Source: Chamaelirium japonicum (taxonomy: Eukaryota; Streptophyta; Magnoliopsida; Liliales; Melanthiaceae). Taken from it: a stretch of 64,000 nucleotides of DNA. Where the stretch lies: positions 36,761,335 through 36,825,334 of the forward strand of contig OX393549.1 of the NCBI GenBank assembly GCA_947650365.1. Reading direction: 5' to 3'. The notes beneath the pieces are model-generated. The model did not search any database and was not told the origin of the DNA. It saw only the letters and a program-made list of their open reading frames with translations. The position numbers were made by a program, and so were the translations under genes. Shown here in pieces: positions 9,129 to 53,000 of the stretch (positions are counted from its first letter, which is position 1; every line of letters starts with the position of its first letter).

Positions 9129-11545
9129 TGTTGAGCGTCCATTTGGTGCGATTTATCCTTTCTTTTTCATGCACATAGCGTCACTTTGCTACGTAAAACT
9201 TTCATAATGCACGTAAACTGCATGAGTCTCTTTGCACCACGATATAGTAGACTCTCATACGAACCCAACGGCATATTGGTTCGCTCTCATACATTGCATG
9301 CATGAAAGATACAGAGCCTCATAGTCCAAATTATCCTTTTATCGATAATCGCGTTTGAATCTGATAAGCGTCATCTCATCTGTGTTTTTCAGGGAATTGA
9401 TCCGGTTTTCGATGCAGTCAGCTCAAAGACTTCATGACCAAGCCATGGATATTCTCACGATAATTTGACGGAGGCTGTACAGCTCGTTTGGAGGCTTATT
9501 CTGAAGAACGATGAAAACGGACAATTGCAATGAGTCGGATGAGAGAAGACTTTAACTGAGCCGATGCAATGCATGATACGAACTGGAAGAGGACTACAGA
9601 CATACAAATAGGCGATGAGATGATGGATTCGGATTACGATGACCAAAGCCTACTCAAGTTTCCCGCATGATCCCATTGCGCTTGAACCCAGTTGTACCTA
9701 TTCGACTCCTACGTGACAAACCCAAGCCCAACTCCGCAACAACCCCATGCATGCAACCTAGCCGCGCAGCCCATCTCTAGAGCTGATCTCATCCATTGCC
9801 TAAAATCAATCACAGCCATCCGTTGCGAACCAGCTGCACCAGATCACAGCATGGCCCAAACCCATGTATGCACCTAATTACAGCCATCCGTTTCCTCTCC
9901 CTTACACCCACCGTCCGATCCCAACTACCTCTTCTGTGGTCCCATGCATGCAGTCCATTACACCAAACCCAGCGGCCCAGCTCCTCTCTCTCTCTACAAG
10001 ACCGGACCGAAACCCATGCGAGCCGAACTTCTTTCTCTCTCTTCCTATTTTCTCTCTCTAGGCCGCACGTCTCTCTCTCTCCTCCTGGTTTTTCTCCCCC
10101 CGAAACCCTCTCTCTCGGTTCCGCTCTCTCTCTATCTCGTCCGTCCAACCCAGCCGATCACCCACTCCGGGTTTCTCTCTCAGCCCAAATCGAGCCCCCT
10201 ATTTTCTCTCTCTAAAATCCAGTCGGATTCCCTCCCCCTACCGGACTTCTCTCTCTCTCTCTTGCCTTTCTCTACCCAACCGAACTTCCCTCTTTCTCTC
10301 TCCTCCCATGCACGTCAACTCTCTCAACCGAACGGCTCTCTTTCTCTTTCCTTTCTTTCAATCTTTCCTTATCTCTCTCTAGTCCGAATTCTCTTTCTCT
10401 CTATCCTATATAGGGGAGGGCTCGGGTAAACTAAAGGGAGGGAGGTTTTGGACGAAAATCATCCACCACTAGAGGGGGGATGACCGAACCAACCATCCAC
10501 CACCTTAGCTCCCACCACTTAGGATCGAAGCCATCATCTTCTCCTTCATCTTCCACCATTCACGACCAAACCCGAAACCCTAATCCTCCACATCCGAGCC
10601 GCCATCGCACCATCGTTCGAGCCGTCATCCGTCATCCGTACCATCGAAGCCGTGCCGCAGCCGAGTCGAAGTGAAGGAGCATCGATCGGAGAGGAGGACA
10701 ACGAAGAGCAAAAGCGTATTCCGAGAATGATCTGTATCTTGCTCTTACCTTCCCTTACTTTTGATGTAATGCAACTCATGATGAACTAAACATATTGCTA
10801 AGGCTTAGATGAAACCCCGGTTATAAATATTATTTAGGTTTATTTTATGTGATCTATGCCAATGCACTTTAATGTTTTATGCGATTCAATTCTTAATTAA
10901 TTGATGATTCAATTTGCTCTCACAATCCATGCCATGTATGTTTTGTAGTTAGCGCTATAATTGATCGTCATGCAATTAGGCCTATTTTAATCGAATAATT
11001 AAAACCCAGATCTTGCATGCTTAACTCAGACATCGGATGCTCTGCTCATGTGCTTTGATCCGTTGTGCTTAACCTAGATGTGTGATGCTTCGTTTTATTA
11101 CATATGCTTGAATTGAATCCAATATTAGAAAATCATATTTAGAGCCTAACGATCACATCCTCGAGTCGAGCACGGGAATCGTATTCCCGCATGCTACTCG
11201 TTTGTATAGATCATTCTGAATAAACCTAGTAATATGGATAACCGAGGTGGATTCGAATGCCTTAGTACCTTCTCCACTTGAAACTCGACTTACCGTAACT
11301 AGCTTGTTTTTCTTTCTTTAATTAATTCGTTTTTAATCTCAAAACAATCAACTCCCATTAAACTACCTTTTAAAGTAATTTAGGTTAAATAGTTAATAAC
11401 TCTAGATTAGATAGTTCCCTCATTAGCAATCCCTGTGGGATCGACCTCGTAATACGTACCGCTCCTACAAAGCGATTCGTGCACTTGCGAGTTATAATTT
11501 AGATCAAATTAAAGCCTTAATTTAGGATTAGTTTAGATCGCATCA
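9129..11545 (+). repeat. 5' LTR of the 8.4-kb element
   Basis: 2417 bp, starting TGTTGAGCG and ending GCATCA. It contains a long CT-rich section (about 9980-10400) and a TATA box. ORFs in it (for example 9944-10429) also occur in the other LTR and are low-complexity Ser/Leu/Pro read-through, so they are not called. Confidence 0.92.
10405..10414 (+). promoter_or_regulatory. LTR TATA box
   Basis: CCTATATAGG sits just after the CT-rich section; the copy in the right LTR is at 16403-16412. Start of transcription is expected near 10440. Confidence 0.55.
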
Positions 11546-11551
11546 AGTTTT

Positions 11552-11569
11552 TGGCGCCGTTGCCGGGGA
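11552..11569 (+). other. Primer-binding site, tRNA-Asp type
   Basis: TGGCGCCGTTGCCGGGGA lies six bases after the LTR end. This is the well-known Athila/Tat-type site complementary to the 3' end of plant tRNA-Asp. Confidence 0.85.
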
Positions 11570-11675
11570 TTGCAACGGAGCTTTCATATCTAGGTTATTC
11601 CTTATTTGCCTTAGTTAGTTTTCGTTTTGTTAGTTTAATTTTATCTTTAGATTAGTTTCTCAATCTTTAACCAAA

Positions 11676-13277
11676 ATGTCTAACCAAGCAATGACCCTAA
11701 AAGAATACATGAATCTTACGAGATCAACAAAATATCAAGATCAATCTTCAACAGTAATGACCAACTCACATTCACCCCAAGCAATGACCCTAAAGGAATA
11801 TATGAACCAAACAAGAACCACCAGACATCAAGATTGTACAAACTTTTCAACTGAACAAGAATATCCTGAAAGAAATTTACCAATTAGGAGTTTACATGGC
11901 TATACACAACATAATTCACCATGCTATGATACACATGATTCTAGATGGCAAAATTATCACGATCCTAGATGGCAAAACTTTCAAAATCCAAGTAGGCAAT
12001 ATTATCAAAATTCTAGTTGGCAAAATCATCACGGCTATATTTGGAAAAATGAATCATCTGCAAATAATTTTCAAGAACCTTATGATTATATGCTATCAAA
12101 TGAGGAGACTCTTGAAGAGACACTACAAATGCTCAATCAACTTATGCAGAACTATCAAAGCAATATGCAAGAGCAAATGAATTCTTTTGAAAGAATTGAA
12201 TCACATTTTAATGTCATTAAGGAAGCAATACTTCGAGATCAATCTCAACCTGAGTCTAACTCCGATGAAGATTATGAGGATTATGAGAACACAATTAGTG
12301 TCTCAATAGATAATGAAGTTTATGAGGAGACCAAGATGGACATCTCTATAGAAGATGAACCTGCCAAATCTGATGTTCTTAATCCTTTGGAAGATTGTCC
12401 GAGCAATATTGATGACATTAATACGGATATGATTTTTAAGGATACTAATGATCTCCCATCCAATATTGACGTCATCAATGATGACATTATAGATAGTATA
12501 ATTGATGAAAAAGCCTATGCTCCCCCCTATGATGATGATGAAAGTAATATTCTCCAATCTAGTTTAAATGTTACTAATGATAATAAAATCTATGAGATGA
12601 ATATGATCGACAATCTTATAGAGAACAAGATTCTTCAATCATCTTTTAATGATCCAGTGGAGGCATGCTTAAAAAATTTTGGTGACCCGAACGATGATCT
12701 GACCAATATTATATTTGATGACACCCATGATCTTCCTTATGACATTGATGATGATATGTTTGTTAAAGAACCTAATGCTCTATCAATGAATCCTGAAATT
12801 AATGATATCAAGACTGATCATTTATCCAGTATCGAAAAATCATACAATGACCTACAAATTTTGCCATCTGAGTTTCAACATATATATTTGGGTGAAGAAG
12901 ACACATTTTCTGATTTAATTTTTCCTCAATACATCCAAAATCAAAAAATTCAATTATATAAAATTTTTAAAGATAATATACATGATACCTGGTGGAATAG
13001 GGAGTATAATAATGAATCTTATATTGTTCTATTTGAAAAGAAAAATCATGAAGAACAATATAGGATGAATCATAATAGAATAATGAAGAGTCACGCAGAA
13101 ACATGCCCAAAGTATACTATAGCATATAATTTCTCAATTGTTGACTACTCTCTTTTCTTTTTAAAAATTCCATCTGCTGAAAAACATATTTGTATTATAG
13201 CAGTTAATTTTTTTATTTATTCGCATCTGCTTGTCTTTATTAGTCTGTTTAGTCGCGTTGTTTTTTTTTCCTTGTAG
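11676..13277 (+). CDS. Gag-like protein of the non-autonomous retrotransposon (533 aa)
   Basis: A single ATG-started frame 130 bp after the LTR end. The N-terminus holds a duplicated QAMTLKEYMN motif (residues about 4-13 and 35-44). Next comes a Trp/Gln/Asn/His-rich zone with repeated RWQN or SWQN words, then a predicted coiled coil near residues 145-190 (LEETLQMLNQLMQNYQSN...). The middle is acidic, with Asp/Asn-rich repeats. The last ~30 residues are hydrophobic (IIAVNFFIYSHLLVFISLF). No zinc knuckle, protease DTG or polymerase motif is present. The coiled-coil part resembles the C-terminal region of Athila-type gag, so I infer a role in particle assembly or RNA binding. Function is not proven; the hydrophobic tail may be read-through rather than a membrane anchor. 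Confidence 0.6.
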   Translation: MSNQAMTLKEYMNLTRSTKYQDQSSTVMTNSHSPQAMTLKEYMNQTRTTRHQDCTNFSTEQEYPERNLPIRSLHGYTQHNSPCYDTHDSRWQNYHDPRWQNFQNPSRQYYQNSSWQNHHGYIWKNESSANNFQEPYDYMLSNEETLEETLQMLNQLMQNYQSNMQEQMNSFERIESHFNVIKEAILRDQSQPESNSDEDYEDYENTISVSIDNEVYEETKMDISIEDEPAKSDVLNPLEDCPSNIDDINTDMIFKDTNDLPSNIDVINDDIIDSIIDEKAYAPPYDDDESNILQSSLNVTNDNKIYEMNMIDNLIENKILQSSFNDPVEACLKNFGDPNDDLTNIIFDDTHDLPYDIDDDMFVKEPNALSMNPEINDIKTDHLSSIEKSYNDLQILPSEFQHIYLGEEDTFSDLIFPQYIQNQKIQLYKIFKDNIHDTWWNREYNNESYIVLFEKKNHEEQYRMNHNRIMKSHAETCPKYTIAYNFSIVDYSLFFLKIPSAEKHICIIAVNFFIYSHLLVFISLFSRVVFFSL

Positions 13278-13459
13278 TACTAACATTTTGCAGGAAACGA
13301 GGCTACAATGAACTTATGAGGTACTATCCATCCTTAAAACTTCGTACTTTTATTTTATATACATGTCCTACAAAAAAAAAAAAAAAAAAAAAGCTATCAT
13401 ATAATGTTACCATCTCATGCATGAGCATGTCTAATTCATACATTGAGGACAATGTCTAA

Positions 13460-13477
13460 TTTAAGTTTGGGGGTGTG
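13460..13477 (+). other. Internal polypurine-tract copy
   Basis: TTTAAGTTTGGGGGTGTG is identical over 18 bases to the terminal tract overlapping the right LTR start (15104-15121). It sits 180 bp after the ORF. Confidence 0.6.
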
Positions 13478-13610
13478 ATGTACCTTTTTGCAAAATCCTG
13501 TATGCATTCAATTTCCACAAAATTTTTCTGTTCTTATTTTGAATTTTTTTTTACACAAAAAAAAAAAAATTGTTTTTTTAAAATAATATTAATAATGCAT
13601 CAACTTACGC

Positions 13611-13672
13611 TGTAGTGGGACAGCTCGGCACATACGTCCTGGCGTATGTGTGTCTCGTCTGTAGTCCCCTAC
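13611..13672 (+). ncRNA. Structured RNA motif (shared with copia leader at 40973-41032)
   Basis: An inner stem CACATACG/CGTATGTG (13629-13636 and 13643-13650) is closed by the loop TCCTGG. An outer stem pairs GTAG-T-GGGAC (13612-13621) with GTCCCCTAC (13664-13672), nine pairs with one bulged T. Between them lie AGCTCGG on the 5' side and TGTCTCGTCTGTA on the 3' side. The same internal-loop sequences and two-stem plan occur in the leader of an unrelated copia element in this window. I do not recognise the fold as a known ribozyme or riboswitch. Confidence 0.55.
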
Positions 13673-15103
13673 CAAAACTACAGCGTTCGTATAGAAGTCT
13701 ATAGGAATTTGCATTTGCATATTTTTATTTTCTTATTCATATTTTAGTTTCTTATCGTATTACTTTTGCCTTCCTTTTCGTTCTTTTCGGAAAAAAAAAT
13801 TTTTTTTTTTTTCTATATATATTTAATCTTTATTTCAGGTTTAGTAGTATAATTATATTGTATTCGAATATGACCATAAGGCACCTGGTAATCAAGGTAT
13901 AAAGTCCAAGGATTAGCTAGAAAAAGTATGTCTAATATGGTTCTGACCCTTAGTAACCTTTTAGAGATTGTCAAAACAAACTAGACTTGACTTTCACTTC
14001 ACATCTGGCTTACACCTCTAGGGTCTAGATTCAAAACTTTCTTATCACCTAATAGTCACTTGGAGTCCTGATGAACCATGCGGATCTGATTCACTTGGTT
14101 TGAAAAAAAAAATATCATTAGAAAAGCGACCAGTGAATTCTAAGGTATAGCGGAAAGGGCTACCTATTAGCATGGTCTAGGACCTAATTATGTAAAATTC
14201 TTAACCTGTATGCCCTAGTATGAGTGAAGCCTGGTCGATAGGGTTATGAGAATGATCCTATGGATGCAGAGCGAATCAAATATAAAGGCAACATGAAGAT
14301 GGCTACCTAACTCATGAGAGCGTTGGCAGCGTGTCATGGGCATAGAGTGCAGCTGGCATGGTACAAGTTAGGAAGGGATATATAATTAGATCCAGAAAAA
14401 ATGAGACCGAAAAAAAAAAAAAAAAAAAGAAAAAAAAAAGAAAAAAAAAAGAAGGAAAAAGAAAAGGAAAATGGTGTGAAAGCCGTCGTTATAAACAATG
14501 TGGGGAAACTGGAATATCACATATAAAGCCGAAAGGTATTAAGGTGAATATCCACAACTCTCACTAGCCTGTCTAGATTAGCTGGTTTTGACTCAGGTTC
14601 TAAGGTCGACTTTGACCGTTCTAGGAGACTGTTAGAATGTTATGAATGTAGAGAACCAAACCCCCAGTTGTGTTTAGCCCAGACAACACCGTGCACTCGA
14701 GCATAGTTGACCTTGATCTTTTCTAACGGGAAACTAATAGTTAGAACCTAAAGTGCTTACTTCGAAAGCCGAAGCTTGGGCTAGATACCTTGTGAGTCTT
14801 GTGCCTTAGAAATTCTATTTTTGAGTACTTTTTAATTATTCTACGAAACCGAATTTTCTTATTTCTTATTTATATTTTCAAAAAAAAATAAAAAAGTTTG
14901 AATTTTGTGGTTAGATTCACTGCAAACCCTCACGAGACGAAACTCGTCCACTGGGGTAACCCAGGGGTTTAAAGGCTTGTTGCACGTGCTAAGTGCAATC
15001 GCGATTCCTGCGAAAGTGAGTTAAATTATTTTTTTTTTATTATTTTTTTTATTTTTATTATTTTTCTAGTCTATTTTATTTGCTTTCTCAAGGACGAGAA
15101 AGA

Positions 15104-15119
15104 TTTAAGTTTGGGGGTG
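15104..15119 (+). other. Polypurine tract
   Basis: TTTAAGTTTGGGGGTG directly precedes the right LTR, as needed for plus-strand priming. Confidence 0.8.
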
Positions 15120-17543
15120 TGTTGAGCGTCCATTTGGTGCGATTTATCCTTTCTTTTTCATGCACATAGCGTCACTTTGCTACGTAAAACTTTCATAATG
15201 CACGTAAACTGCATGAGTCTCTTTGCACCACGATATAGTAGACTCTCATACGAACCCAACGGTATATTGGTTCGCTCTCATACATTGCATGCATGAAAGA
15301 TACAGAGCCTCATAGTCCAAATTATCCTTTTATCGATAATCGCGTTTGAATCTGATAAGCGTCATCTCATCTGTGTTTTTCAGGGAATTGATCCGGTTTT
15401 CGATGCAGTCAGCTCAAAGACTTCATGACCAAGCCATGGATATTCTCACGATAATTTGACGGAGGCTGTACAGCTCGTTTGGAGGCTTATTCTGAAGAAC
15501 GATGAAAACGGACAATTGCAATGAGTCGGATGAGAGAAGACTTTAACTGAGCCGATGCAATGCATGATACGAACTGGAAGAGGACTACAGACATACAAAT
15601 AGGCGATGATGGGTTTGATGATGGATTCGGATTACGATGACCAAAGCCTACTCAAGTTTCCCGCATGATCCCATTACGCTTGAACCCAGTTGTACCTATT
15701 CGACTCCTACGTGACAAACCCAAGCCCAACTCCGCAACAACCCCATGCATGCAACCTAGCCGCGCAGCCCATCTCTAGAGCTGATCTCATCCATTGCCTA
15801 AAATCAATCACAGCCATCCGTTGCGAACCAGCTGCACCAGATCACAGCATGGCCCAAACCCATGTATGCACCTAATTACAGCCATCCGTTTCCTCTCCCT
15901 TACACCCACCGTCCGATCCCAACTACCTCTTCTGTGGTCCCATGCATGCAGTCCATTACACCAAACCCAGCGGCCCAGCTCCTCTCTCTCTCTACAAGAC
16001 CGGACCGAAACCCATGCGAGCCGAACTTCTTTCTCTCTCTTCCTATTTTCTCTCTCTAGGCCGCACGTCTCTCTCTCTCCTCCTGGTTTTTCTCCCCCCG
16101 AAACCCTCTCTCTCGGTTCCGCTCTCTCTCTATCTCGTCCGTCCAACCCAGCCGATCACCCACTCCGGGTTTCTCTCTCAGCCCAAATCGAGCCCCCTAT
16201 TTTCTCTCTCTAAAATCCAGTCGGATTCCCTCCCCCTACCGGACTTCTCTCTCTCTCTCTTGCCTTTCTCTACCCAACCGAACTTCCCTCTTTCTCTCTC
16301 CTCCCATGCACGTCAACTCTCTCAACCGAACGGCTCTCTTTCTCTTTCCTTTCTTTCAATCTTTCCTTATCTCTCTCTAGTCCGAATTCTCTTTCTCTCT
16401 ATCCTATATAGGGGAGGGCTCGGGTAAACTAAAGGGAGGGAGGTTTTGGACGAAAATCATCCACCACTAGAGGGGGGACGACCGAACCAACCATCCACCA
16501 CCTTAGCTCCCACCACTTAGGACCGAAGCCATCATCTTCTCCTTCATCTTCCACCATTCACGACCAAACCCGAAACCCTAATCCTCCACATCCGAGCCGC
16601 CATCGCACCATCGTTCGAGCCGTCATCCGTCATCCGTACCATCGAAGCCGTGCCGCAGCCGAGTCGAAGTGAAGGAGCATCGATCGGAGAGGAGGACAAC
16701 GAAGAGCAAAAGCGTATTCCGAGAATGATCTGTATCTTGCTCTTCCCTTCCCTTACTTTTGATGTAATGCAACTCATGATGAACTAAACATATTGCTAAG
16801 GCTTAGATGAAACCCCGGTTATAAATATTATTTAGGTTTATTTTATGTGATCTATGCCAATGCACTTTAATGTTTTATGCGATTCAATTCTTAATTAATT
16901 GATGATTCAATTTGCTCTCACAATCCATGCCATGTATGTTTTGTAGTTAGCGCTATAATTGATCGTCATGCAATTAGGCCTATTTTAATCGAATAATTAA
17001 AACCCAGATCTTGCATGCTTAACTCAGACATCGGATGCTCTGCTCATGTGCTTTGATCCGTTGTGCTTAACCTAGATGTGTGATGCTTCGTTTTATTACA
17101 TATGCTTGAATTGAATCCAATATTAGAAAATCATATTTAGAGCCTAACGATCACATCCTCGAGTCGAGCACGGGAATCGTATTCCCGCATGCTACTCGTT
17201 TGTATAGATCATTCTGAATAAACCTAGTAATATGGATAACCGAGGTGGATTCGAATGCCTTAGTACCTTCTCCACTTGAAACTCGACTTACCGTAACTAG
17301 CTTGTTTTTCTTTCTTTAATTAATTCGTTTTTAATCTCAAAACAATCAACTCCCATTAAACTACCTTTTAAAGTAATTTAGATTAAATAGTTAATAACTC
17401 TAGATTAGATAGTTCCCTCATTAGCAATCCCTGTGGGATCGACCTCGTAATACGTACCGCTCCTACAAAGCGATTCGTGCACTTGCGAGTTATAATTTAG
17501 ATCAAATTAAAGCCTTAATTTAGGATTAGTTTAGATCGCATCA
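15120..17543 (+). repeat. 3' LTR of the 8.4-kb element
   Basis: 2424 bp. It differs from the left LTR by about six substitutions and a 7-bp insertion near 15608. Confidence 0.92.
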
Positions 17544-18626: not shown

Positions 18627-18758
18627 CGGTTTTGTCCGTACTTGATAAAATGATTGTGTTTATGCGTCCATTTCTGTTGATATTGCAACGACACTCAGTA
18701 ATGCACGAGTTTGAAGGCCTTGTGGGTGCAAATTTTGGCAGAAGTCTACAAACCGCGG

Positions 18759-19100
18759 GACCCACCAGCCCTGCCTGGCGGGCCCACGAAGACTACCGCA
18801 GGACCCACCGGCCCTGCCTAGGGGGCCCACGAAGACTACCGCGGGACCCACCAGCCCTGCCTGGCGGGCCCACGAAGGCTACCACGGGACCCACCAGCCC
18901 TGCCTGGCGGGCCTACGAAGGCTACCGCGGAACCCACCAGCCCTGCCTGGCGGGCCAATGAAGACTACCGCGGGACCCACCAGCTCTGCCTGGCGGGCCC
19001 ACGAAGACTACCGCGGAACCCACCAGCCCTGTCTGTGGAATCCCCAAAGATAACAGTGGGACCCACCGGCCCTGTCTGGAGAATCCCCCGGATTTCCTCC
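18759..19100 (+). repeat. 43-bp minisatellite, about 8 units, in the solo LTR U3
   Basis: Units begin GGACCCACCAGCCCTGCCTG and continue with a GGGCCCACGAAGACTACC-like part. The last two units are more diverged. The array ends about 10 bp before the TATA box. Confidence 0.9.
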
Positions 19101-19110
19101 CAGGAAATCC

Positions 19111-19119
19111 TATAAATAG
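19111..19119 (+). promoter_or_regulatory. TATA box of the solo LTR
   Basis: TATAAATAG lies just downstream of the minisatellite. Confidence 0.6.
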
Positions 19120-19608
19120 CAGAGCTTTCAGAAGTAAAGGGATCGAATTTTCCAGAGCAAGTTTCCAGATCCCAGTTCAAAATCTAGAAGAGAAGATCAG
19201 TGCCATCATCTGATATCTGATTTCAGAAATTAGAGCTCTGGAATTTCCAGCTTTCCCATCCTTCAACTCTCCTCGATCTTCTTCTTGTCTCTGAAGAGAT
19301 CGGAGAAACTTCAGTGACACTCGGCCTGTCGAGGTCACTTCGAGCCAAGTGATAGTGAATTCGGGTTGCTCCCTATAGCACGGAGACGTAGGCTTTGGCT
19401 GAACTCCGAGATCACCTCTCGTGTTAACTTTCTCTGATTGCATCTCTCTTTGTTTGCATACCTAAAGAGCTAACTCGAAGTCACTAAGGCATCAGCCTTC
19501 AAGCATACCCTCTAACCAACTGATCGACCAACGATCTTCGACTCAACTTCAATTGACTGGTGAGGTGAAGTCTTCGGATCGGCATGAAGATTTTTCCCCC
19601 ACAGGCCT

Positions 19609-35333: not shown

Positions 35334-36064
35334 TGTTGGAAATAAATCGCTTGCTAAACAAATATTTCAAATCTTAATTTATTTTAATTAGATGTGAGAT
35401 GGATGACAACTTTATATTCCAAATATTGCCAAATAAAAAAGATGAAAATATGAGACAATAAAATTGCTAATGAATCCTAGCTAGTGAATGATCCAATATG
35501 AGACTTTTGTAGCGGAGTATGAATATGATAAAACTATACGTAAGCAAATAATACTATTAATATTCTAGTAATTTAGGAAGAAGAAGAGTTAAGAGGATGG
35601 CCTGGGGTCGAAGCACGCCTTGGCGCTGTCCTAGAAATCCAATTGCCCCCCACGTGCGGGTCTCGTGGCAAGGATGACTAGAGATATGACGAACCCCCCG
35701 GATGACCACCTTTCCTTCTCGTTGGCATGCCTCAGAGAAGGCACACGAACACCGCACTATCGCCTTCAGGAGCCCAGCAAAAAGCTTAAAGAAAATTGGA
35801 ATGGGAGATTTTTGGAGCAGAGTTTCAAGAGCAAAAGATGATCAAAAGTGTGTTTATTTAGCCATGGGTTTTGGGCCCATTTTATAGCCCACCAAGGGGT
35901 GTGATGGCTGCCCATTATTTTGGGCTTTAAAATCCAAGCCATAATGGGTTTGAATGTGACCGTTATAGCCGTTGCACAAAGGTTTGAATGTGTGCAACGG
36001 CTATACCGTTACAAAAGGTTTTTAAAACACAATAAAAACTAAAAATAAAAATAAAACGTTAACA
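35334..36064 (-). repeat. 3' LTR of the 6.8-kb copia element
   Basis: 731 bp. It carries 28 bp (near 35745-35785) that are missing from the other LTR. Confidence 0.92.
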
Positions 36065-36616
36065 ATCCCCCACATGTTTTAAAAACATTAAATATTTAAA
36101 AATCTTTAAAAAATTTAAAATAAGAGAATTTGCTGGTCTCCTTGTACTATGATTTCGGTAAAGGTACCTCTCGGTTTGAACCTTTACTTAGTGAAAATTG
36201 TTTTGGTCTGTGGCACCTTTAGTAGACTATGTCTTTGAACTTAGGACCATGATTCAGACTTTAACAAGTGTCACACACAGTATGGCTATGCTGATGTTCT
36301 AAACGGCCGGGTAGCGCTATTAACGGCCTTGCGCAGGTATCTTATGTGTGTATTCGAGATCAGCCCTAATCTCATAGTCGCGGCCTCACGACCACACATA
36401 TCGGTGATTCCTCAAAGAGTACGAGCAAGGAGACACTCTGTCTCAAGGATCTCGGAATCATTTAAGAGTTTTGAACTCATCCTACCCTTGCTTTTATGAG
36501 CACTGACGCCATAGGGATGGGAGTAGGTAAAACCAGTGCTCCTCATAGTCACCAATACAGCTTATTTCTACTCATTGAACCTCCGTGAGGTTGGGTTGCC
36601 ACCGTGGTGATCTTTC

Positions 36617-39600
36617 TTATGGGCTTAATCGCATCCCCCTCGATGCTTCTAGAACCACTGTTCTAGACACCCCCTTTGTGAGCTGATCAGCAATATTCTT
36701 CTCAGACTTCACAAAATTTAGGGTAATTATTTAGTATTTTAGTTCATACCTTAATGATTTATGTCGCACTTTTAAGTGTCGATTCATTTTTATATTTTCA
36801 TTTTCTTGTTTGCATTTATCAATTGCTGACTTACAATCGCAATGAATAGATATAGCTGGTATAAGTCTCTCTCCTATGGGTATATCAGTTATAAGGTCTC
36901 TTAACCACTCGGATTCTATACTAGTGGTATCTAGGGCTATCATTTCAGATTCCATTATGCTCCTAGCCATTACTGTCTGCTTGGTGGACTTCCAAGAGAC
37001 AGTTGCACCTCCTAATAGGAAGACAAAACCGATTGTAGATTTTACATCCAGGTTGTCACTGATCCAATTAGCATCAGTATAGCCTTCTAAGACGGCTGGA
37101 TAACCACTAAATTTAAGGCCATAGGTTAGTGTGCCCTTAAGATATTTTATTACTCTTTCTAGGGCATTCTAATGACTTTTATCTGGATTGTGTGTGTATC
37201 TACTTAGACGACTTACTGTATAAGCTATATCGGGTCTAGTATAGTTAGCTAAATATCCTAACGATCCAATTATTTGTGCATATTCCTTTTGTAACGCAGG
37301 TAAACCTGTGTTTTTCTTAAGGTGGATATTAGGATCATAAGGGGTGGATACTGAAGTACAATCAAAGTAAAAATATTTCCTAAGGATCTTCTCAGTATAG
37401 TGAGATTGAGTTAGTGTGATACTATCATCATTTCTAATGATTTTTGTGTTTAGTATCACATCTGCTTGACCTAAATCCTTCATATCAAAATTTTGGGACA
37501 GGAAATGTTTTACTTTATTTACTGCTGAATATTAGATCCAAAGATCAGGATATCATCCACATACAAACAGAGAATGATGATGCCATTATTACTAACCTTA
37601 TGGTATATACATTCATCGGTTTTGTTTATTTCAAAACCGTCGGATGTGATGACTTCATCAAACTTCCTATGTCATTGTTTGGGTGCTTGTTTTAGGCCAT
37701 ATAGAGATCTAATCAATTTACACACCTTAGATTCTTGACCTGAAACTATAAACCCCTCAGGTTGATCCATATAGATTTTCTCATCTAAGTCTCCATTTAA
37801 GAAAGCGGTTTTTACATCCATTTGGTGAATTACCAGCTTATTTATGGATGCTAATGCAATAAGGACTCTAATGGTAGTGATCCTAGCTACAGGAGCATAC
37901 ACATCAAAGTAGTCTATTCCAGGTTTTTGGGTAAATCCTTTGGCTACTAACCTAGCCTTGAATTTCTCTACCGATCCATCGGGTCTAAGTTTCTTCTTAA
38001 AGATCCACTTACATCCAATGGTTTTACAACCTGGAGGTAGGTTTACTAATTCCCAAGTTTGATTTTGGACAATGGATTGCATCTCGTTATTTATAGCTTC
38101 TTTCCAGAAAGGAGAATCGAATGACTTCATTGCATCTGCGTAGTTGATTGGTGTATCTTCTACTAGAAGAGCATAGAAGTCATCGAAGATCTTTTCTGTC
38201 CTAGCTCTAGAGCTTCTCCTAGGTTCAGTGGGAATGCTATCCTCAATTGGTCTTTTGTTTCTAGAGCACGATGCTATGTCAGTGTCGTTCGATCTAGGTT
38301 CTGTTCCAATTTTAGTCCTAAAAGGAAAGATGTCTTCAAAATAGGTAGCATCTCTAGCTTCCATTATTGTATTATTAGTAATTTCACTAATCTGAGAGTT
38401 AAAAACTAAAAATCGGTTAGCATTGCTATCTGATGCATAGCCTATGAAAATGACATCTATGGTTTTTGGACCGATCTTTTTCTTTTTATTTTTAGGGATC
38501 TTGACTTTTGCCAAACACCCCCACACTTTAAGATAATCCAAAGTGGGTTTTCTATTCTTCCACATTTCATAAGGGGTGAGGTTATTCTTTTTAGAGGGAA
38601 TTCTGTTAAGTATGAAACAGGCTATTACTAGTGCTTCTCCCCACAAGTTTTCAGGTGCTCCTAAGCTAATTAGCATGGCATTAACCATATCCATAAGGGT
38701 TCTATTCTTACGTTCAGCTACTCCGTTAGATTGGGGGGTATAGGGAGCTGTGACTTCATGAATTATACCGTGTTCTTCACAGAACTCGGTTAACTCATGA
38801 GAGGTATACTCTCCACCTCGATCGGATCTAAGTATTTTTAAGATCTTATCTCTTTGGTTTTCAGCCTCAGCTTTATAGACCTTAAATTTACTTAGTACCT
38901 CATCTTTGGTTTTTATGAGGTATAGGTAACAGTATTTTGATAGGTCATCTATGAATGTGACAAAATATCTGTTACCTCCTCTAGTAGTCCTTCCTGAGTC
39001 GCATACATCACTATGAACTAATTCGAGGATTTCAGAGTCTCTATCGATTGTTCTAAAAGGTTTCTTAGCTTGTTTTGCTTCTACACAAGTTTCACACTTA
39101 TCGAGGTTTTGGATATCTGCTTTAGGTATTAGATTTAGGTTCATCAGTCTCTTGATGGAGTTGTAATTCACATGACCTAGTCTAGCATGCCAGATAGGTG
39201 GAGATTCAACATTTAGTACTGAAAGACTTTTATTATTTTCTAAAGGAATACAAACATTTAGCTTAAATAAGCCATCACTCATAAATCCTTTCCCAATAAA
39301 AGACACTCCTTTTGTGATTACAACTTTATTCGATTCAAACACGAGTTTATAACCGTGTTGAACTAGAAGAGAACCGCTAACAAGGTTGTGTCTAATCTCT
39401 GGAACGTGATGAACTCCGTGTAGGGTTATGATCTTGTTCGATGTAAGCTTTAAGTTGACTTGACCCGTTCCCAATACGCGAGCTTCGGCATTATTTCCCA
39501 TGGTCACAGCTCCTTCACTTGATACCTGATAAGTGGAGAACCAAGAGCGATCAGAACATACATGGATGTTAGCTCCGGTATCAATCCACCAGTCAAGTGC

Positions 39601-40593
39601 TTACAAAGTCAAGTTTACTTCTGGAATAGAGGCAACTGATCTGAAAGCATTCTCAGATGAGGTGACCATATTTACTTGGGAAGGAGGTTGTGGTCCGTTC
39701 TTCCTAGGTTGAGAAGGTCCAGTCTTCTTGTAGAAGCAGTCCGATGCCATATGGTTGGTTCGACCACATACGTAGCAGTAGCGTACTCCTTTTGCTGGCT
39801 TCTTCTGAAATTTGGGGTTTTTGGTGAAAGACTTCTTGTGGAATGGTTTATTTGGTTTGGGATAAAAGGACTTGGTTTTCTTATGGTGTTTTGGTTTTGA
39901 TTCTATATTGTTTACCTTGGGTTTGGACTCGGAAAGAGATTTTTCTCTAAGTCTATGTTGTTCTTCTATCCTAATGGAATTGAAGACTTGGATTAGAGAT
40001 AGTTCTCCTTGGGAATGATTTAGTTTTCTAGCAAAGTCAGACCAGGATGATGGGAGTTTATCTATCAAGCAAGCTATCTGGAAGTTTTCATCTAGGGTTG
40101 ATCCGTTATCCTTGAGATAATGGACTAGATTCTCAAACTCATGAATTTGTTCATTCATCGGTTTAGAATCATTCATTTTAAACTTATTGAAATCAGCTGC
40201 TTTGTAGCGTTTGATCCCAGCATCATCTAGGTCGTACTTAGAATTTAGGGTATCCCAAAGTTCTTTAGCATCTTTTGAGGTATAGTAGATGTCGTATAAC
40301 CTATCGGAAAGGGATCCTAGGATACGGTGGCGACAAATATATTCTATTTCCTCAGGAGTCCTAGATGTGGAAGTAGAATCAGAGCCATCTGGGTTGGATG
40401 ATCCACTACTGGTTTGGGCATGTTTGTCTATAGGGTTGGACTCATTTCCTGATTCGGTGGTGCTATCACTTATTGCAGACATAAGTCCAAGCAAGGACAA
40501 CCAGAATCTCATCTGGTTTTGCCAACGCTTGAAATTAGCCCCATCGAATTTCTCAGGCTTCGCACTAAGGTACTCAGTTCTAGGGGAAGTCAT
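36617..40593 (-). pseudogene. Copia gag-pol polyprotein, three premature stops and two frameshifts
   Basis: The start is the ATG at 40593 (MTSPRTEYLSAKPEKFDG). Gag runs to 39604 and has a zinc knuckle CYVCGRTNHMASDC. A TAA at 39601-39603 separates it, in the same frame, from the protease (WWIDTGANIHVC). Next come the integrase zinc region and core (HARLGHV, CETC, DRGGEYTS, NGVAERKNR) and reverse transcriptase (KWIFKKKLRPDGS, QMDVKTAFLNGDL). A TGA at 37672-37674 replaces the Trp of the QAPKQW motif. YVDD is at 37552-37563, a frameshift follows near 37530, and a TAG at 37169-37171 again replaces a Trp. RNase H ([15 protein letters not shown]) runs to 36731, and after another frameshift the usual C-terminal tail (NIADQLTKG) reaches a TAA at 36617. 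The element cannot make a full polyprotein. Confidence 0.9.
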
Positions 40594-40972
40594 TTTTAGG
40601 GTAAGGGAGTTAAGCCTGGAATGAAACAAATTTTGTGTCAGAACAATATTATGCACTATTTTCTACGTGAACCAAATTTATCTTCTTTTGTATAATAGTT
40701 GACCTGAGTATCGCTAGATTTGACTTTGGAAGTCCAAATGAGTTCTCCAAAGTATGACAGCCAGATCAGCTCCAGATGGGTGGTGGAGCACTTGGCTCGC
40801 TTAAATACCAGTCCGTTTTAGGCACGTATGCCTTTTTGACAAGCTTTTTTAGACACCGTCTAACTAAGGATGATTCACCGGAATTCTTTAAGTCACTTCT
40901 TCGTGAGAGACTCAAGTATAAATAAAAGAAAATAATTAAAAGTTTTTTTTTTTTTATCAAAATCTCTAGATT

Positions 40973-41032
40973 ATAGGGATAACAGACTAGTCACACATAC
41001 ACGAATGTATGTGCCGAGCTCTCCCTACTAGA
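40973..41032 (-). ncRNA. Structured RNA motif in copia leader (shared with 13611-13672)
   Basis: On the minus strand an inner stem CACATACA/TGTATGTG is capped by TTCG. An outer stem pairs TAGGGA with TCCCTA. The internal-loop strands are GAGCTCGG and TGACTAGTCTGTTA. It lies about 410 nt after the 5' LTR and 380 nt before the gag ATG. The loop sequences match the motif in the non-autonomous gypsy-type element. Its role is unknown; packaging, dimerisation and translation control are possibilities. Confidence 0.5.
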
Positions 41033-41439
41033 GTCTTGATTTTGTTTAGATTATGTGTTTGATTATTATTATTATTATTTTTAATTATAAAATATTAAAT
41101 TTTAATTATGTGTAGTAAAACAATTTTTCACTTACACTAATGTTGTATTATCTATATTATACTAATGATCAAGCAATTTCTAATCAATCAAGATGCTAAC
41201 AATACAATTTTAACAAACTATACTATTATATTATTAGCAAGATCTAATGCTAAGCAAATATTAACAATGATGCTTTAGATTAGATCAAAGGTTAATACTA
41301 AAGCATTAAACTAAATATTGGTATGCCAATAATTAAGTATTTGCAAGATATAGAGATTTGTAAAAAATAAATTTAATTATTTTGAAATCTAAAAAATATT
41401 TCAAGCCAACAAATTAACAACTTAATTGGATTTTTAGAT

Positions 41440-42138
41440 TGTTGGAAATAAATCGCTTGCTAAACAAATATTTCAAATCTTAATTTATTTTAATTAGATG
41501 TGAGATGGATGACAACTTTATATTCCAAATATTGCCAAATAAAAAAGATGAAAATATGAGACAATAATTGCTAATGAATCCTAGCTAGTGAAGGATCCAA
41601 TATGAGACTTTTGTAGCGGAGTATGAATATGATAAAACTATACGTAAGCAAATAATACTATTAATATTCTAGTAATTTAGGAAGAAGAAGAGTTAAGAGG
41701 ATGGCCTGGGGTCGAAGCACGCCTTGGCGCTGTCCTAGAAATCCAATTGCCCCCCACGTGCGGGTCTCATGGCAAGGATGACTAGAGATACGACGAACCC
41801 CCCGGATGACCACCTTTCCTTCTCGTTGGCACGCCTCGGAGAAGGCACACGAACACGGCTTAAAGAAAATTGGAATGGGAGATTTTTGGAGCAGAGTTTC
41901 AAGAGCAAAAGATGATCAAAAGTGTGTTTATTTAGCCATGGGTTTTGGGCCCATTTTATAGCCCACCAAGGGGTGTGATGGCTGCCCATTATTTTGGGCT
42001 TTAAAATCCAAGCCATAATGGGTTTGAATGTGACCGTTATAGCCGTTGCACAAAGGTTTGAATGTGTGCAACGGCTATACCGTTACAAAAGGTTTTTAAA
42101 ACACAATAAAAACTAAAAATAAAAATAAAACGTTAACA
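41440..42138 (-). repeat. 5' LTR of the 6.8-kb copia element
   Basis: 699 bp, ending CCAACA on the minus strand at 41440. Confidence 0.92.
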
Positions 42139-47017: not shown

Positions 47018-50000
47018 ATGAAAGCTCTCCGACGATCCCACACTACTTCGTCGTCATCATCTCCGTCGTCGCCCTCGTCGTCGTGGATCCATCTGCGTTC
47101 GCTTCTAATTGTTGCCTCCTCACCTCTTCCCAATCGGTGAGTCCCCTTCTCACTCCCTCACTCTCCATTTCCTATCTCCTTGCTTTGTTCTTTCTCTCTT
47201 AGTTCCGTTGAAGTCTCAATCCATCACCACAACAAGTCGCCTTTGTACTGGCAGGAGATAATTTTGCTGGGTTTTGAATTTCAAACTAGGTAGTTCCCAT
47301 TTTTGTCTGTTTTTAGTCAGAGGGTTTGATCTGCTTGCTGATACTGAGGAATATCTCAATGATTATTTGTTCATAGCAGATCATAGAGAGGTAATTGTGT
47401 CATGTTTTGATTCTTCTTATGTGGGTCAATGTCAAGATCATTGCTAGTGTGAGTTTCTGAGCATGCGGGTGGTACATTTTTGCTCGTTGGCTCGTTCATG
47501 GTGGGTTTCGCTTGTTGGGTGTGCTGGTTTCATATTATGCCCGCCTCTCTTAGATGTTAAATCTGTTCCTCTTCCATTTCCTTTCTTTGTTTGAGACTGA
47601 GCGCGAATCAGTGCTGGCGCCCGAGTGAGTTTCGAGAACTCTCTCGATTTTGGAAATTACTTAAGCTCCGGAATAAATAAGTTGAACAAGCATTGTCTCC
47701 ACTTGTTGGCAATCAATGTGTCTTTTTGATTTCTGGTCCTAGCCGGTACTCTTTGGTGGATTGAAGTCCCTTGCAATCTTTCGCTATCGTCTAATTTTCA
47801 TCTCGGGTTTGCATTTTGGTTGCTTAGTATTTTTTGGCTTTTCCGTGAAGTCGGGGAGGTTGTAATCTAATTGCAGTTCCAATTTTAGATCACTCTTTAT
47901 GTATTTTGTATTTACTTCCCAAATTGTTCACCTTTTGTGTTGTTATGATATATTTTTATAGCATCATTGCATAATTTTCAGAGGTGGTCTTCAATCCCCA
48001 TGGTCTCGAAGGAAAAGAAAGCATGCACTTTCTCGACAGCAATGGAACAGTTTCTTTACACCAGATGGAAATCTTCGAGACGGAGGGGTGAAGTTTCTGA
48101 AAAAAGTCCGCAGTGGAGTACGCACTTATTACACTTCATTTGTGTATTCAATTTATGTTACTTTTTCATTATCTTTCTATCTGTAGTGGTTGAAGAATGC
48201 TATTGATTTAAGACATCTGTCTATGATATAGGGAATTGATCCAAGCATCAGGGCTGAGGTTTGGCCTTTCCTTCTTGGAGTGTAAGATTTACTAACCCAT
48301 TTGTTTTTTAATTGTATTTTTGTTCTTTGGGTGATAATGCTTGGTTGATCTAATCTCTTGGATGCATTTCTCTGCTATCTAGTTATTGTTTCTCATGCCT
48401 AATTTTTTGGATCACCCGATATATGCTATTTATAATGATCTCTGTACAATGACTAAAGAATCATTCCAAAAAAGTAATTCATATGTCATGGATATGGGGA
48501 GGATATGATCAAGCCTTCTGCATGATAGTGCAAATTTTCGGGATTCTCGTATTAATTTTGCTTTTTGAGGCCAAGTGTGATCTCACTGCCTACATCTTCT
48601 TAAATTGAAAACTACAATATTATTACTACAGAAACCTGACCATTTGGAGCAGTCCTCAAAATGTATGCTGGTATCAATTTGATACTCAATAGAAATGTCA
48701 AAGAACAAAAAATGCATATGACCCAAAACCCACAACTTGTAAGACATGAAACCTCCTTAGATCATTTGGTTCTCCTCCACTTAAGAATGATGAAGGCAAT
48801 CTACTGCATAATTGGAAGTTACAGTGTCTTGTTGTTAAAGATTCGGTGATATCTTTCTTTTTACAGAACATGACATAATGACATATTGCATGTAGAAATC
48901 TCTGATACCTTTAGGAACAACGGTTATTTTGTAAAAGGATCTCCATTTAGCCAAAATTATAGACAAATGCAGACATTTTTGGATCGCCGATCAATAGGAT
49001 ATGTAACTTGTTTAATTTATTTCTAAGATAATTTTGTCACTTGGACATCTGATTGCAATAATAATCTAAGAAGCTTGGGTTATTTTTGCAAATTAATGTT
49101 TATTGTGATGCAAAAAGCTCAAATCTATATACCTGCATTGTACATTAACAAGGAGTAGCTAACCAGATTATCATTAGTCCAAGTCCGTTTAACGTTGTTA
49201 ATGTAATGTAATGGGTCGGGTTTACTGTATAGTCGGGTCGGGTTTACTGTACATATATATTGGGCTTGAGTCCCTCAATGGAATCATTCTGTTCCTCTCC
49301 AAACCCTAGCCGTCGTCTCCTAACATGGTATCAGAGCTCTAGGGCGACGGCAGAACCGCCGGCCCCCCCTCCGGCCCCTCCAGCCACCGCCGACCCCTCC
49401 TGACCCCACCCGAACCCCTTCCGCACCCCCCCCGGCCCCTCCAGTCCCTGCCGGTCCCCCCCCGGCCCTTCCAGCCACCGCCCGAACCTCTCCCGCCCCC
49501 CCCGGCCCCTCCGGTCACCGCCGGCTCCCCCCCCCCGGCCCCTTCAGCCACCGGCGACCCCCCCCGACCCCACCCGCACCCCTCCCGACCCCCCCCGACC
49601 CCACCCGCACCCCTCCCGACCCCACCCGACCCCACCCGAACCCCCCCCGGCCCCTCCGATCACCGCCGACCTCCCTCGCACACCCTCCAGTCCCCACCGG
49701 CCCTCCGATCCCCTCACCACAGCCCACCCGATCCCCTTCAGCCCACCCGATTCCCTCCCGACACCCTACAGCCTCCTCCATGGCATCTCCAGCTGTCCCG
49801 ACCGTTGCTGCGATCTCTCCACCGCTGAAGGCGGTCGCGTTCCAGTTGTCGGCGGCCAGCGACTGGCCTGACTGGTCCCTCACCGTCGAGGCCGCCCTCT
49901 CCAGTCGTGATCTGTGGGGTCACATCACCGGCGAGGATCCTCCTCCCACTGACTACTCCGGCTCGTCCTCTGTCACCAGCAGTGCTGCATCTTCTGCAGC

Positions 50001-53000
50001 GACTGCTACCACGGCCGTCCCCGTTGCTGCTCTTACGTGGCGCCGCCACGATCAGGCCATCCGGGCGTACCTCCTGGACTCGGTTGCTCGTCCGCTCCTT
50101 GCTCCCATCGGCCGCCTTCCGACTGCGCGCGCGATGTGGGAGTATCTCCGGGACCGTTTTCTCCCGCGCGGCGGCGCCCGCCGGCATCAGCTCATCTGCG
50201 ACTCGCAGTCTGCCCGTCAGGGGGAGCGTACCATTCAGGACTTTTTCAGTCAGATGAGTGCCTACTGGCATGAGCTGGACTCACTGATTCCGGAGCGGTG
50301 TGACTGCCCCCGCTCCCGGGACTTCCAGCGCTACCTCGACGAGGGCCACCTGCACCAGTTTCTGGCAGCACTTCGACCAGACTTTGCTCTCATAGCCGCC
50401 CAGCTCCTGCACCGTGAGCCCCTCCCTCGGCTCGAGGATGCCCTACTCGCCTTGGTCGACGAGGAGACCCGCCTTCAGACTCAGGGTGCTCGTGCTCCTC
50501 CACTTGCTCCTAGCTCCGATTCTGTCCTGGCAGCCGGGTTCTCCGATGAGGCTGTTTTCTGTCACTACTGCAAGGAGCCCGGCCACATGAAGCGCGAGTG
50601 CCCTACACGTCCTCCACGCAACCCCCGCTGGGGTCCGGATGAGCGATCCCCCCGCTGGTCTTCGACCTCTCGCGACGATCGACGCGGCGGTCGAGGTGGA
50701 CGGGGCCGAGGACGTGGTTCGTCTTCCTTTCGCCACTTTGGTGGTGCAGCGGCTACTGCAGAGGCCTCGCCGCTCCCCACTGCTCCCACAGCTCCTTCGC
50801 CGCCTGAGCCGGACCGTCTTCAGCGCCTCGAGGAGCTCCTTCTCCGCCACATAGCCTCCACCGGCTCCGCGACTGCGCACGGCTTGTCTGCCACCTCTGG
50901 TACTACTGCTCCATGGATCTTCGATTCGGGTGCCTCCTGTCACCTTACTTTTGACTCCACTGTCCTCACGGACTGTTCTCCCACTACCACCCACCAGGAG
51001 GTTCGCACTGCGGATGGGACTCTCGTCCCTATTCCGCAATGTGGCTCCATCACCACCACCTCTGACCCTTCTGGTCGCCTGACCCTATCCCATGTCCATC
51101 ATGCCCCTCGTCTTAATATTAATTTGATTTCCATCAGTTCTCTTTGCGACTCTGGCCTGACTGTCACCTTCACCCCTTCTGTTTGTGTTGTGCAGGATTC
51201 GCGGACGGGTCAGAGGATTGGGCTGGGCCGTAGGGCAGGAGGACTCTACCAGTTGGACCATCTCCATGTGTCTTCAGTTGCGTCTGTCATGTCTGTCTGA
51301 TGCCGACCTGTGGCACAGAAGGTTAGGTCATATATCTAGTGATCGACTCAAAAGCGTATTCCGTTCGGGCGCTTTGGGTCGAGCGTCTTTCTCCCCCCTC
51401 TCTGTCTGTACGGGTTGTCGACTGGCAAAGCATCTAGCTCTTCCTTTTTCTGCTAGTACTTCCCAGTCTAATGCTTTATTTGATTTAGTTCATTCGGATA
51501 TTTGGGGTCCTGCGCCTGTTGCATCTCTATCTGGTTATATGTATTATGTTTGTTTTATCGATGACTATTCTAGGTGCACCTGGGTCTATCTCATGCGTCA
51601 TCGGTCTGAAATTCCCCACATCTTTAGGCGATTCACCACTATGATACACACCCAGTTTGGTCGGCGAATCAAGACCTTTCGGTCTGATTGTGCCAAGGAG
51701 TATCTCTCCTCTGAGATGCGTGAGCTTCTTCAGTCTCACGGCACTCTTCACCAGCAGTCCTGTCCCCACACCCATGAGCAGAACGGCGTTGCCGAACGCA
51801 AGCATCGTCATGTCCTTGAGACTGCACGAGCCTTGCTTCTCTCTGCGTCTGTCCCTCACTCCTACTGGGCTGAAGCTGTCATGACGGCTGTCCACCTCAT
51901 CAATATCACTCCGTCATCTGCTCTGTCCGGTGCCACCCCTCACGAGCGCCTTCACTCCAGCCCACCTGACTACTCTCTTCTTCGCACGTTTGGCTGCACG
52001 TGCTTCGTTCTTCTTCCTCCCCATGAGCGCACCAAACTTTCCGCGAGGTCTGTTAGGTGTGTTCACTTGGGGCTCAGTCGTGAGCATAAGGGGTATCGCT
52101 GCTATGATCCCTTAGCTCGTCGGATCCGTGTCTCCCGTCACGTCTCCTTTGTTGAGGATGTCCCGTATTTTGCTCCTGAGTCTCGGGATCTTTCCTTGCC
52201 TACTTCGTCATCCTCCTCGCCCTCCTCACGTCTTCACATCCCTGTTCTACCCCCGGTTTCTGTTGCTCCATCCACGCCTACTACACCACCACCACCTCCT
52301 CCTCAGTATCCATCGCCACCACCACCACCACCTCCTCAGTCCCCCACGCCACCACCCCCACCACCTCCACCACCCATTACTCGTGTCTATGTACGTCGGT
52401 CTGCAGCTCCCCCTCCCGAATCGGTTCTCCCTGGTACTCCTTCGCCTGATGCTGCTGCTCCCTCCTCCCCGGTCGTGGATCCTGCTCCTGTTCGGCGCTA
52501 CCCAGCGCGCGAACATCACCCTCCAGTCAGATACGACTACTCTCCTGACAGGTTTGGTTACTCTGCTTTTCCCACTGACTCTCCTGCCTCTTCTGGCTTC
52601 TCTGCCAGTGTCTCCTATTCACCATCCTTTCAGGCCTTCCTTACTGCTCTTCACACTCACCGGGAGCCCCAATCGTACCGTGAGGCAGCATTACATCCAG
52701 AGTGGCGGCAGGCCATGTCAGTTGAGCTTGAGGCATTTCAGCGGACCCAGACCTGGGAGTTGGTGCCTTGTCCCCCCGGGGTGGTGCCTGTTAGCTGCAA
52801 GTGGATCTTCAAGGTCAAGACTCGACCTGACGGCTCCATTGAGCGGCACAAGGCTCGCCTCGTTGCTCGTGGCTTCTCACAGGAGTATGGGATTGACTAC
52901 GAGGAGACGTTTGCTCCAGTTGCTCGGATGACTACTGTGCGCACCCTCTTAGCTGTGGCAGCTGCTCGAGGGTGGCCTCTCCATCAGATGGATGTCACCA

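Follow-up and report, generated by a model that had tools for sequence, protein, structure and literature searches.

Two LTR retrotransposons in the 64-kb window, that is, the whole stretch of DNA analyzed here, carry copies of the same predicted RNA hairpin. The first is a gypsy-like element at 9129–17543 on the forward strand. Its LTRs (9129–11545 and 15120–17543) are 2.4 kb long and 99.5% identical, and the TSD is ATCAA. TGGCGCCGTTGCCGGGGAT follows the 5' LTR and a PPT-like tract, GTTTGGGGGTG, precedes the 3' LTR. We take the site after the 5' LTR to be the tRNA-Asp primer match of Athila/Tat elements. Two similar PPT-like stretches exist on the forward strand of this element: AATTTAAGTTTGGGGGTGTGATG at 13458–13480, roughly 130 nt ahead of the hairpin, and GATTTAAGTTTGGGGGTGTGTTG at 15102–15124, at the 3' LTR. 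The interior possesses a 533-aa ORF (11676–13277, +) and no other ORF of 100 aa, and no pol-like frame was seen. The label "gag-only," proposed in an earlier note on this DNA, is not upheld. Specifically, the 533-aa ORF has 0 Pfam matches at E 0.01 and lacks a CCHC knuckle pattern, although a diverged gag is possible. Directly after the stop of this ORF, at 13278–13293 (+), TACTAAC is followed by a CAG acceptor-like site. The C terminus of the ORF may be intron read-through; splice scores here are not above those of shuffled sequence. From the hairpin to the 3' LTR there is no 100-aa open frame, and the longest ATG-started run is 69 aa.

The second carrier is a copia element at 35334–42138 on the reverse strand. 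Its LTRs align in two blocks, 98.3% and 99.6% identical. Given its TG...CA LTR ends and its TSD, TCGGA, the atypical LTR ends described in PMC5659011 do not apply to it. Pfam domains comprise Retrotran_gag_2, a zinc knuckle, integrase, and RT. The RT match extends only to position 128 of 244, the point at which the frame stops, so this copia copy is probably defective. At 41439–41421 (−), after the 5' LTR, the sequence ATCTAAAAATCCAATTAAG does not start with TGG and hence shows no evident primer site for an ordinary tRNA 3' end. About 400 nt separate the 5' LTR from the hairpin, which sits inside a leader of about 850 nt that precedes the gag ATG at 40593. Thus, the module occupies the 5' leader of the copia element versus the 3' noncoding region of the gypsy-like element. 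A third LTR-type element lies at 49196–54330 (+), with identical 130-bp repeats spaced 5 kb apart. The long frames between them look copia-like on visual inspection, and a search of this element with a covariance model gives no hairpin copy. The window also harbors tandem arrays with start-to-start spacings of 59–60 bp (1078–2121) and 43 bp (18709–19122).

The aligned core of the common module spans 13610–13683 (+) in the gypsy-like element and 40964–41033 (−) in the copia leader. Alignment of the two cores yields 75 columns, of which 69 are ungapped; 55 of these 69 are identical and 14 are substituted. The 14-mer AGCTCGGCACATAC occurs exactly, with 0 mismatches, twice in the window (13622–13635, + and 41007–41020, −), and the descriptor CTCGG-N14-40-TGNCTNGTCTG matches twice, versus 0.00 matches expected from 100 shuffles. 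A blastn comparison of the element interiors also returns the hairpin as its best match, with 81.5% identity across 54 columns and E 5.2e-6. The local score of 57 exceeds both the 42 obtained when sense is compared with antisense and the maximum of 43 reached by 200 first-order Markov shuffles. The two elements share this module far above chance. Both copies lie where the earlier note had placed them, and the shared pieces that it described are present; their spacing is not exactly equal, however, as the apical loops differ by 2 nt. Conservation within the module is uneven. The 5' side of the internal loop, AGCTCGG, is identical in copia at 7 of 7 positions, while the apical loop and the 3' bulge vary in sequence and length.

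In the MFE fold of 13598–13697, the gypsy copy runs from P1 to P1 at 13607–13686 (+). P1 pairs ACGCTGTAGT (13607–13616) with ACTACAGCGT (13677–13686) over 10 bp. P2 pairs 13617–13621 with 13664–13668 (GGGAC/GTCCC), and an 8-nt 3' bulge, CTACCAAA (13669–13676), separates P2 from P1. The alignment places AGCTCGG (13622–13628) on the 5' side of the internal loop, TGTCTCGTCTGTA (13651–13663) on its 3' side, and the P3 hairpin at 13629–13650 (CACATACG/CGTATGTG, last pair G-C, apical loop TCCTGG). The MFE is −36.8 kcal/mol (z −4.12; 1 of 200 shuffles as good). Among 417 80-nt segments in the gypsy-like element, the one at 13609 has the lowest MFE; by z-score it ranks sixth and its overlapping neighbor at 13629 ranks first. 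The outer stem drawn earlier for this copy, GTAG.GGGAC/GTCCCCTAC, competes with the MFE fold, in which ACGCTGTAGT pairs with ACTACAGCGT instead.

The copia copy runs from P1 to P1 at 40956–41040 (−) in the MFE fold of 40950–41048, with an MFE of −32.1 kcal/mol (z −5.76; 0 of 200 shuffles as good). Its P1 has 13 bp with one bulged A, its 3' bulge is 4 nt, and its P2 is TAGGGA/TCCCTA. The internal loop sets (G)AGCTCGG opposite TGACTAGTCTGTTA: AGCTCGG is assigned to 41014–41020 by exact match and alignment, and TGACTAGTCTGTTA to 40980–40993 by sequence and alignment. P3 (CACATACA/TGTATGTG) is capped by the apical loop TTCG. The 80-nt segment at 41038 has the seventh lowest MFE of 337 in the copia element, and, at z −2.34, it lies outside the element's best eight by z-score. 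The hairpin has a GC content of 0.44, a value that 12% of leader segments attain.

Three collinear helices are predicted in both copies, arranged as P1, 3' bulge, P2, asymmetric internal loop, P3, and variable apical loop. A G-U pair is added at the foot of P3 in both. The outermost P1 pairs are ACG/CGT in one copy and AUCAAGA/UUUUGAU in the other; their sequences differ, and each is paired. In both copies folding is more stable for the sense strand than for the antisense strand (−36.8 versus −32.7 kcal/mol for gypsy; −32.1 versus −24.6 for copia), as expected of RNA. The original drawing is incomplete: in both copies a third, outer stem closes past the interval then considered. Those shorter intervals give z −2.72 (1 of 200 shuffles) and −2.19 (4 of 200), less striking than the values with P1 included. 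The last inner pair was correctly given as G-C in one copy and A-T in the other. That both copies share one internal loop holds by alignment but not in detail, because the two MFE folds place extra weak pairs inside it differently; the loop as drawn here is the alignment's and not fully a joint prediction.

Evidence that the structure has been kept is moderate. Columns 3–73, in P1, are G-C in gypsy and C-G in copia, and columns 28–35, in P3, are G-C in gypsy and A-T in copia; in each case both sides have changed and pairing is kept. In total, the aligned core contains 21 gypsy-copy pairs, of which 17 are unchanged, 2 are compensated, and 2, at helix ends, are lost in copia (7–69, T-A to T-T; 13–56, C-G to G-A). 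Taken together, the changes leave most of the hairpin able to fold. Random placement of the 14 substitutions does as well or better in 0.012 of trials over these 21 pairs, which were picked by the fold itself. For the 19 pairs that both copies form (the two lost in copia excluded), 2 are compensated and 0 are broken, and the chance of all remaining intact is 0.003. Pairings slid by 1 to 3 columns yield 0 compensated pairs. When substitutions are placed at random in the gypsy copy, 4.7% of 1000 such sequences do no worse in folding than the copia copy. In a shuffle control, 122 of 500 trials show at least as much covariation as was observed, so chance is not rejected. With two copies only, the covariation rests on two events. 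Our conclusion is that the module is a shared, real, and probably kept RNA hairpin.

The module appears to be older than either insertion. Divergence between its copies is K2P 0.24, versus LTR-pair differences of about 0.5% in the gypsy-like element and 0.4–1.7% in copia. If rates are similar, the module copies parted long before either insertion, and both lineages would have carried the module through earlier rounds.

The main rival to a hairpin that is read by a host factor is a functionless recombination relic. The notion is that a tract was copied between families by template switching and that its arms pair through self-correction or luck. Hairpins can indeed self-correct, via quasi-palindrome templated changes. 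Consistent with a relic, there are only two copies, the structure statistics are modest (about 0.01 for the 21 pairs, plus the shuffle control above), and the two lost pairs lie at helix ends. Also consistent are the flanks, both of which show, in a gapped alignment, the weak collinear similarity that a longer copied tract would leave. The flank alignment scores are reached by 9 of 2000 and 26 of 2000 shuffles. Among GC-matched real segments, with the two loci themselves excluded, 0 of 22 and 2 of 76 do as well as the 5' flank, and 9 of 319 and 9 of 273 do as well as the 3' flank; both flanks jointly are equaled at 1 of 74 and 2 of 215 AT-rich places, that is, about 1 in 100. Thus, a longer tract, since decayed, may have been copied between the elements, with the hairpin as the portion that survives best. 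The flank similarity sits, however, in AT-rich, low-complexity sequence. Moreover, ungapped identity directly beside the module is 0.30–0.40 over 10 to 40 nt, where a tract of equal age evolving without constraint would be expected to retain close to 80%. Both insertions are also young, so the module has been carried longer than either of them. We regard a relic as a serious possibility that nonetheless falls clearly short of probable.

Further copies were sought within and beyond the window. A covariance-model search of the window, with matches considered up to E 10, found no third copy. Its 18 matches include the two model sequences, whose scores against their own model (98.9 bits for the gypsy copy, 92.1 bits for the copia copy) are high by construction. 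The next match (16.4 bits, E 0.035) skips the loop and P3, and it and the weaker ones were not taken as copies. When its stem is left free, the loop pattern matches 27 stretches in viral_contigs and at least 118 in genome_contigs. The 145 loop-pattern stretches listed were rejected as copies: in each, at most 4 uninterrupted pairs stand directly inside the loop, whereas the same count gives 10 and 9 in the two window copies. With none above 4 pairs among the matches listed, we take the prokaryote and virus loop-pattern matches as chance. The stem-specific pattern has 0 matches in viral_contigs. The copia pol piece is also without a match there in a search by six peptide patterns, an approach whose reach is limited to close relatives. 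Against 72,556 plasmid records, the gypsy hairpin yields 0 matches at E 1. A pairing-partner search within the elements for complements of the loop strands revealed no long match common to both. In open PubMed Central, queries on motifs, leaders, packaging, export, and structured RNA returned no description of the hairpin in the titles or abstract openings among the matches listed, and papers matching 10–12 letter pieces of the motif name no plant retrotransposon in their titles. The earlier note had held that a match to a known RNA family would count against its proposal; across the whole window, Rfam 15 gives none at gathering score. At E 10, the interval 13580–13710 has 0 Rfam matches, and 40940–41070 has 5 hits below gathering score, none of them a ribozyme. 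The best of these weak hits to the copia copy is SCARNA1 (16.9 bits versus a gathering score of 45, E 0.86).

The explanation that we tentatively favor, while giving it less than an even chance, is a cis-acting RNA hairpin that derives from one ancestral module, has its fold and loop under selection, and is read by a host factor in the handling of unspliced RNA. The hairpin would be about 80 nt long, and its best-kept part is the predicted asymmetric internal loop, AGCUCGG opposite UGNCUNGUCUGUNA, between helices. Both elements would have inherited a single ancestral module, acquired via recombination or template switching, and selection may since have kept the fold and the loop. The elements differ in apparent primer site, in module position, and in particle protein (Retrotran_gag_2 plus zinc knuckle in copia versus an ORF with no Pfam match in the gypsy-like element). 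These differences argue that the reader would be supplied by the host rather than by the elements. The fixed loop strand argues for binding at the internal loop, and the differing apical loops argue against kissing. Together, the two copies suggest a common job in both elements, for example binding a plant protein, which two copies cannot prove. The putative use would be on full-length unspliced RNA, with nuclear export the first candidate, followed by stability or sorting; export itself takes about half of the weight that we place on the host-factor reading. The "functional RNA" of the earlier note stands as a shared structured element, strengthened by a second compensated pair and an outer stem, while function itself, and transfer or recruitment between families, are extrapolated from two copies. 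Two of the roles once suggested fit poorly. Translation control suits the gypsy copy badly, as no 100-aa frame lies between that hairpin and the 3' LTR, and dimerization by apical-loop kissing is at odds with loops as different as TCCTGG and TTCG.

An unlikely alternative to the host-factor hairpin is a packaging or dimerization signal, in which a Gag-bound hairpin selects genomic RNA and was acquired by a non-autonomous element for packaging. Retroviral packaging signals sit in the 5' leader, as does the copia copy. The gypsy-like interior, with no pol-like frame, would need help in trans, and the AGCU of the loop is self-complementary. The gypsy copy, however, sits 3' of the ORF, and kissing usually involves apical loops, which here are not conserved. 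The gypsy-like element also has long LTRs and a primer-type site unlike anything beside the copia LTR, so one Gag is unlikely to serve both. Packaging is possible, but two different particle systems would have to read the hairpin.

Less probable still is a new, small self-cleaving ribozyme whose catalytic core would be the conserved internal loop. Small ribozymes usually look like a conserved internal loop between more variable helices, which is the arrangement here. The known small ribozyme classes, among them hammerhead, twister, twister-sister, and HDV-like, are represented in Rfam, but neither copy has a covariance-model match to an Rfam ribozyme family. Cleavage in the leader would separate gag from the 5' LTR and, we reason, would cut the genomic RNA that both elements need whole. 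A precedent exists in plant retrozymes, which resemble the present case as structured RNA in non-autonomous plant retroelements (PMC4918200). Theirs is a hammerhead, however, and the Rfam searches here gave no hammerhead match. A twister-sister-like minimal ribozyme has loop strands of 5 and 6 nt and a CA cleavage site (PMC11620745); the strands here, as aligned, are 7 and 13–14 nt, outside those loop sizes. Least probable of all is a host noncoding RNA or intronic hairpin, snoRNA-like for example, captured by both elements: SCARNA1 leads the weak Rfam hits of the copia copy, and the best-scoring acceptors (40616 in the copia leader, 13838 in the gypsy-like interior) both lie downstream of the hairpin, but SCARNA1 falls far below gathering score and is absent for the gypsy copy, and the best acceptors and donors lie within the range of shuffled sequence. 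An intronic position for the hairpin was dropped on the same splice scores.

The host-factor hairpin is modeled on retroviral transport elements, which present an internal loop to an export receptor. Specifically, the CTE of D-type retroviruses is a two-fold symmetric stem-loop with AAGACA internal loops bound by Tap-p15 (PMC4330393). Like the CTE, which recruits the export receptor to unspliced RNA, the present module is a stem-loop with a conserved internal loop. Unlike it, the module has a single asymmetric loop, and AAGACA is missing from AGCTCGG and from TGTCTCGTCTGTA/TGACTAGTCTGTTA. Plants are said to use TREX, not TAP/NXF1 (PMC12786077). With AAGACA in neither copy and plants said to rely on TREX, the export analogy is one of role only.

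Other transport elements offer looser parallels. Those of mammalian LTR elements include the IAP RTE, the MusD MTE, and the HML-8-derived MER11 element of SERV-K, the last of which replaced an older system in a recombinant (PMC11379458). The likeness is that of cis-acting export elements in LTR retroelements, with export here putative. The differences are that these elements are mammalian and that the MusD MTE and MER11 element form complex multi-stem structures, a distinction drawn from their published description and not from sequence. Among plant reverse-transcribing elements, the 5' leader of cauliflower mosaic virus is likewise structured and recruits TREX components (PMC12786077). That leader is, however, 482–608 nt long and works with viral P4 and P5, whereas the hairpin here is about 80 nt.

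A bolder proposal, which we consider doubtful at present, is that the hairpin represents an undescribed compact plant RNA transport or host-factor-binding element, exchanged by LTR retrotransposons across superfamilies and a counterpart of the retroviral transport elements. The hairpin, retained in two unrelated elements that inserted recently, offers a concrete candidate for reporter tests. If it recurs across families, plant retrotransposons would trade RNA modules, much as a primate retrovirus gained a transport element through recombination (PMC11379458).
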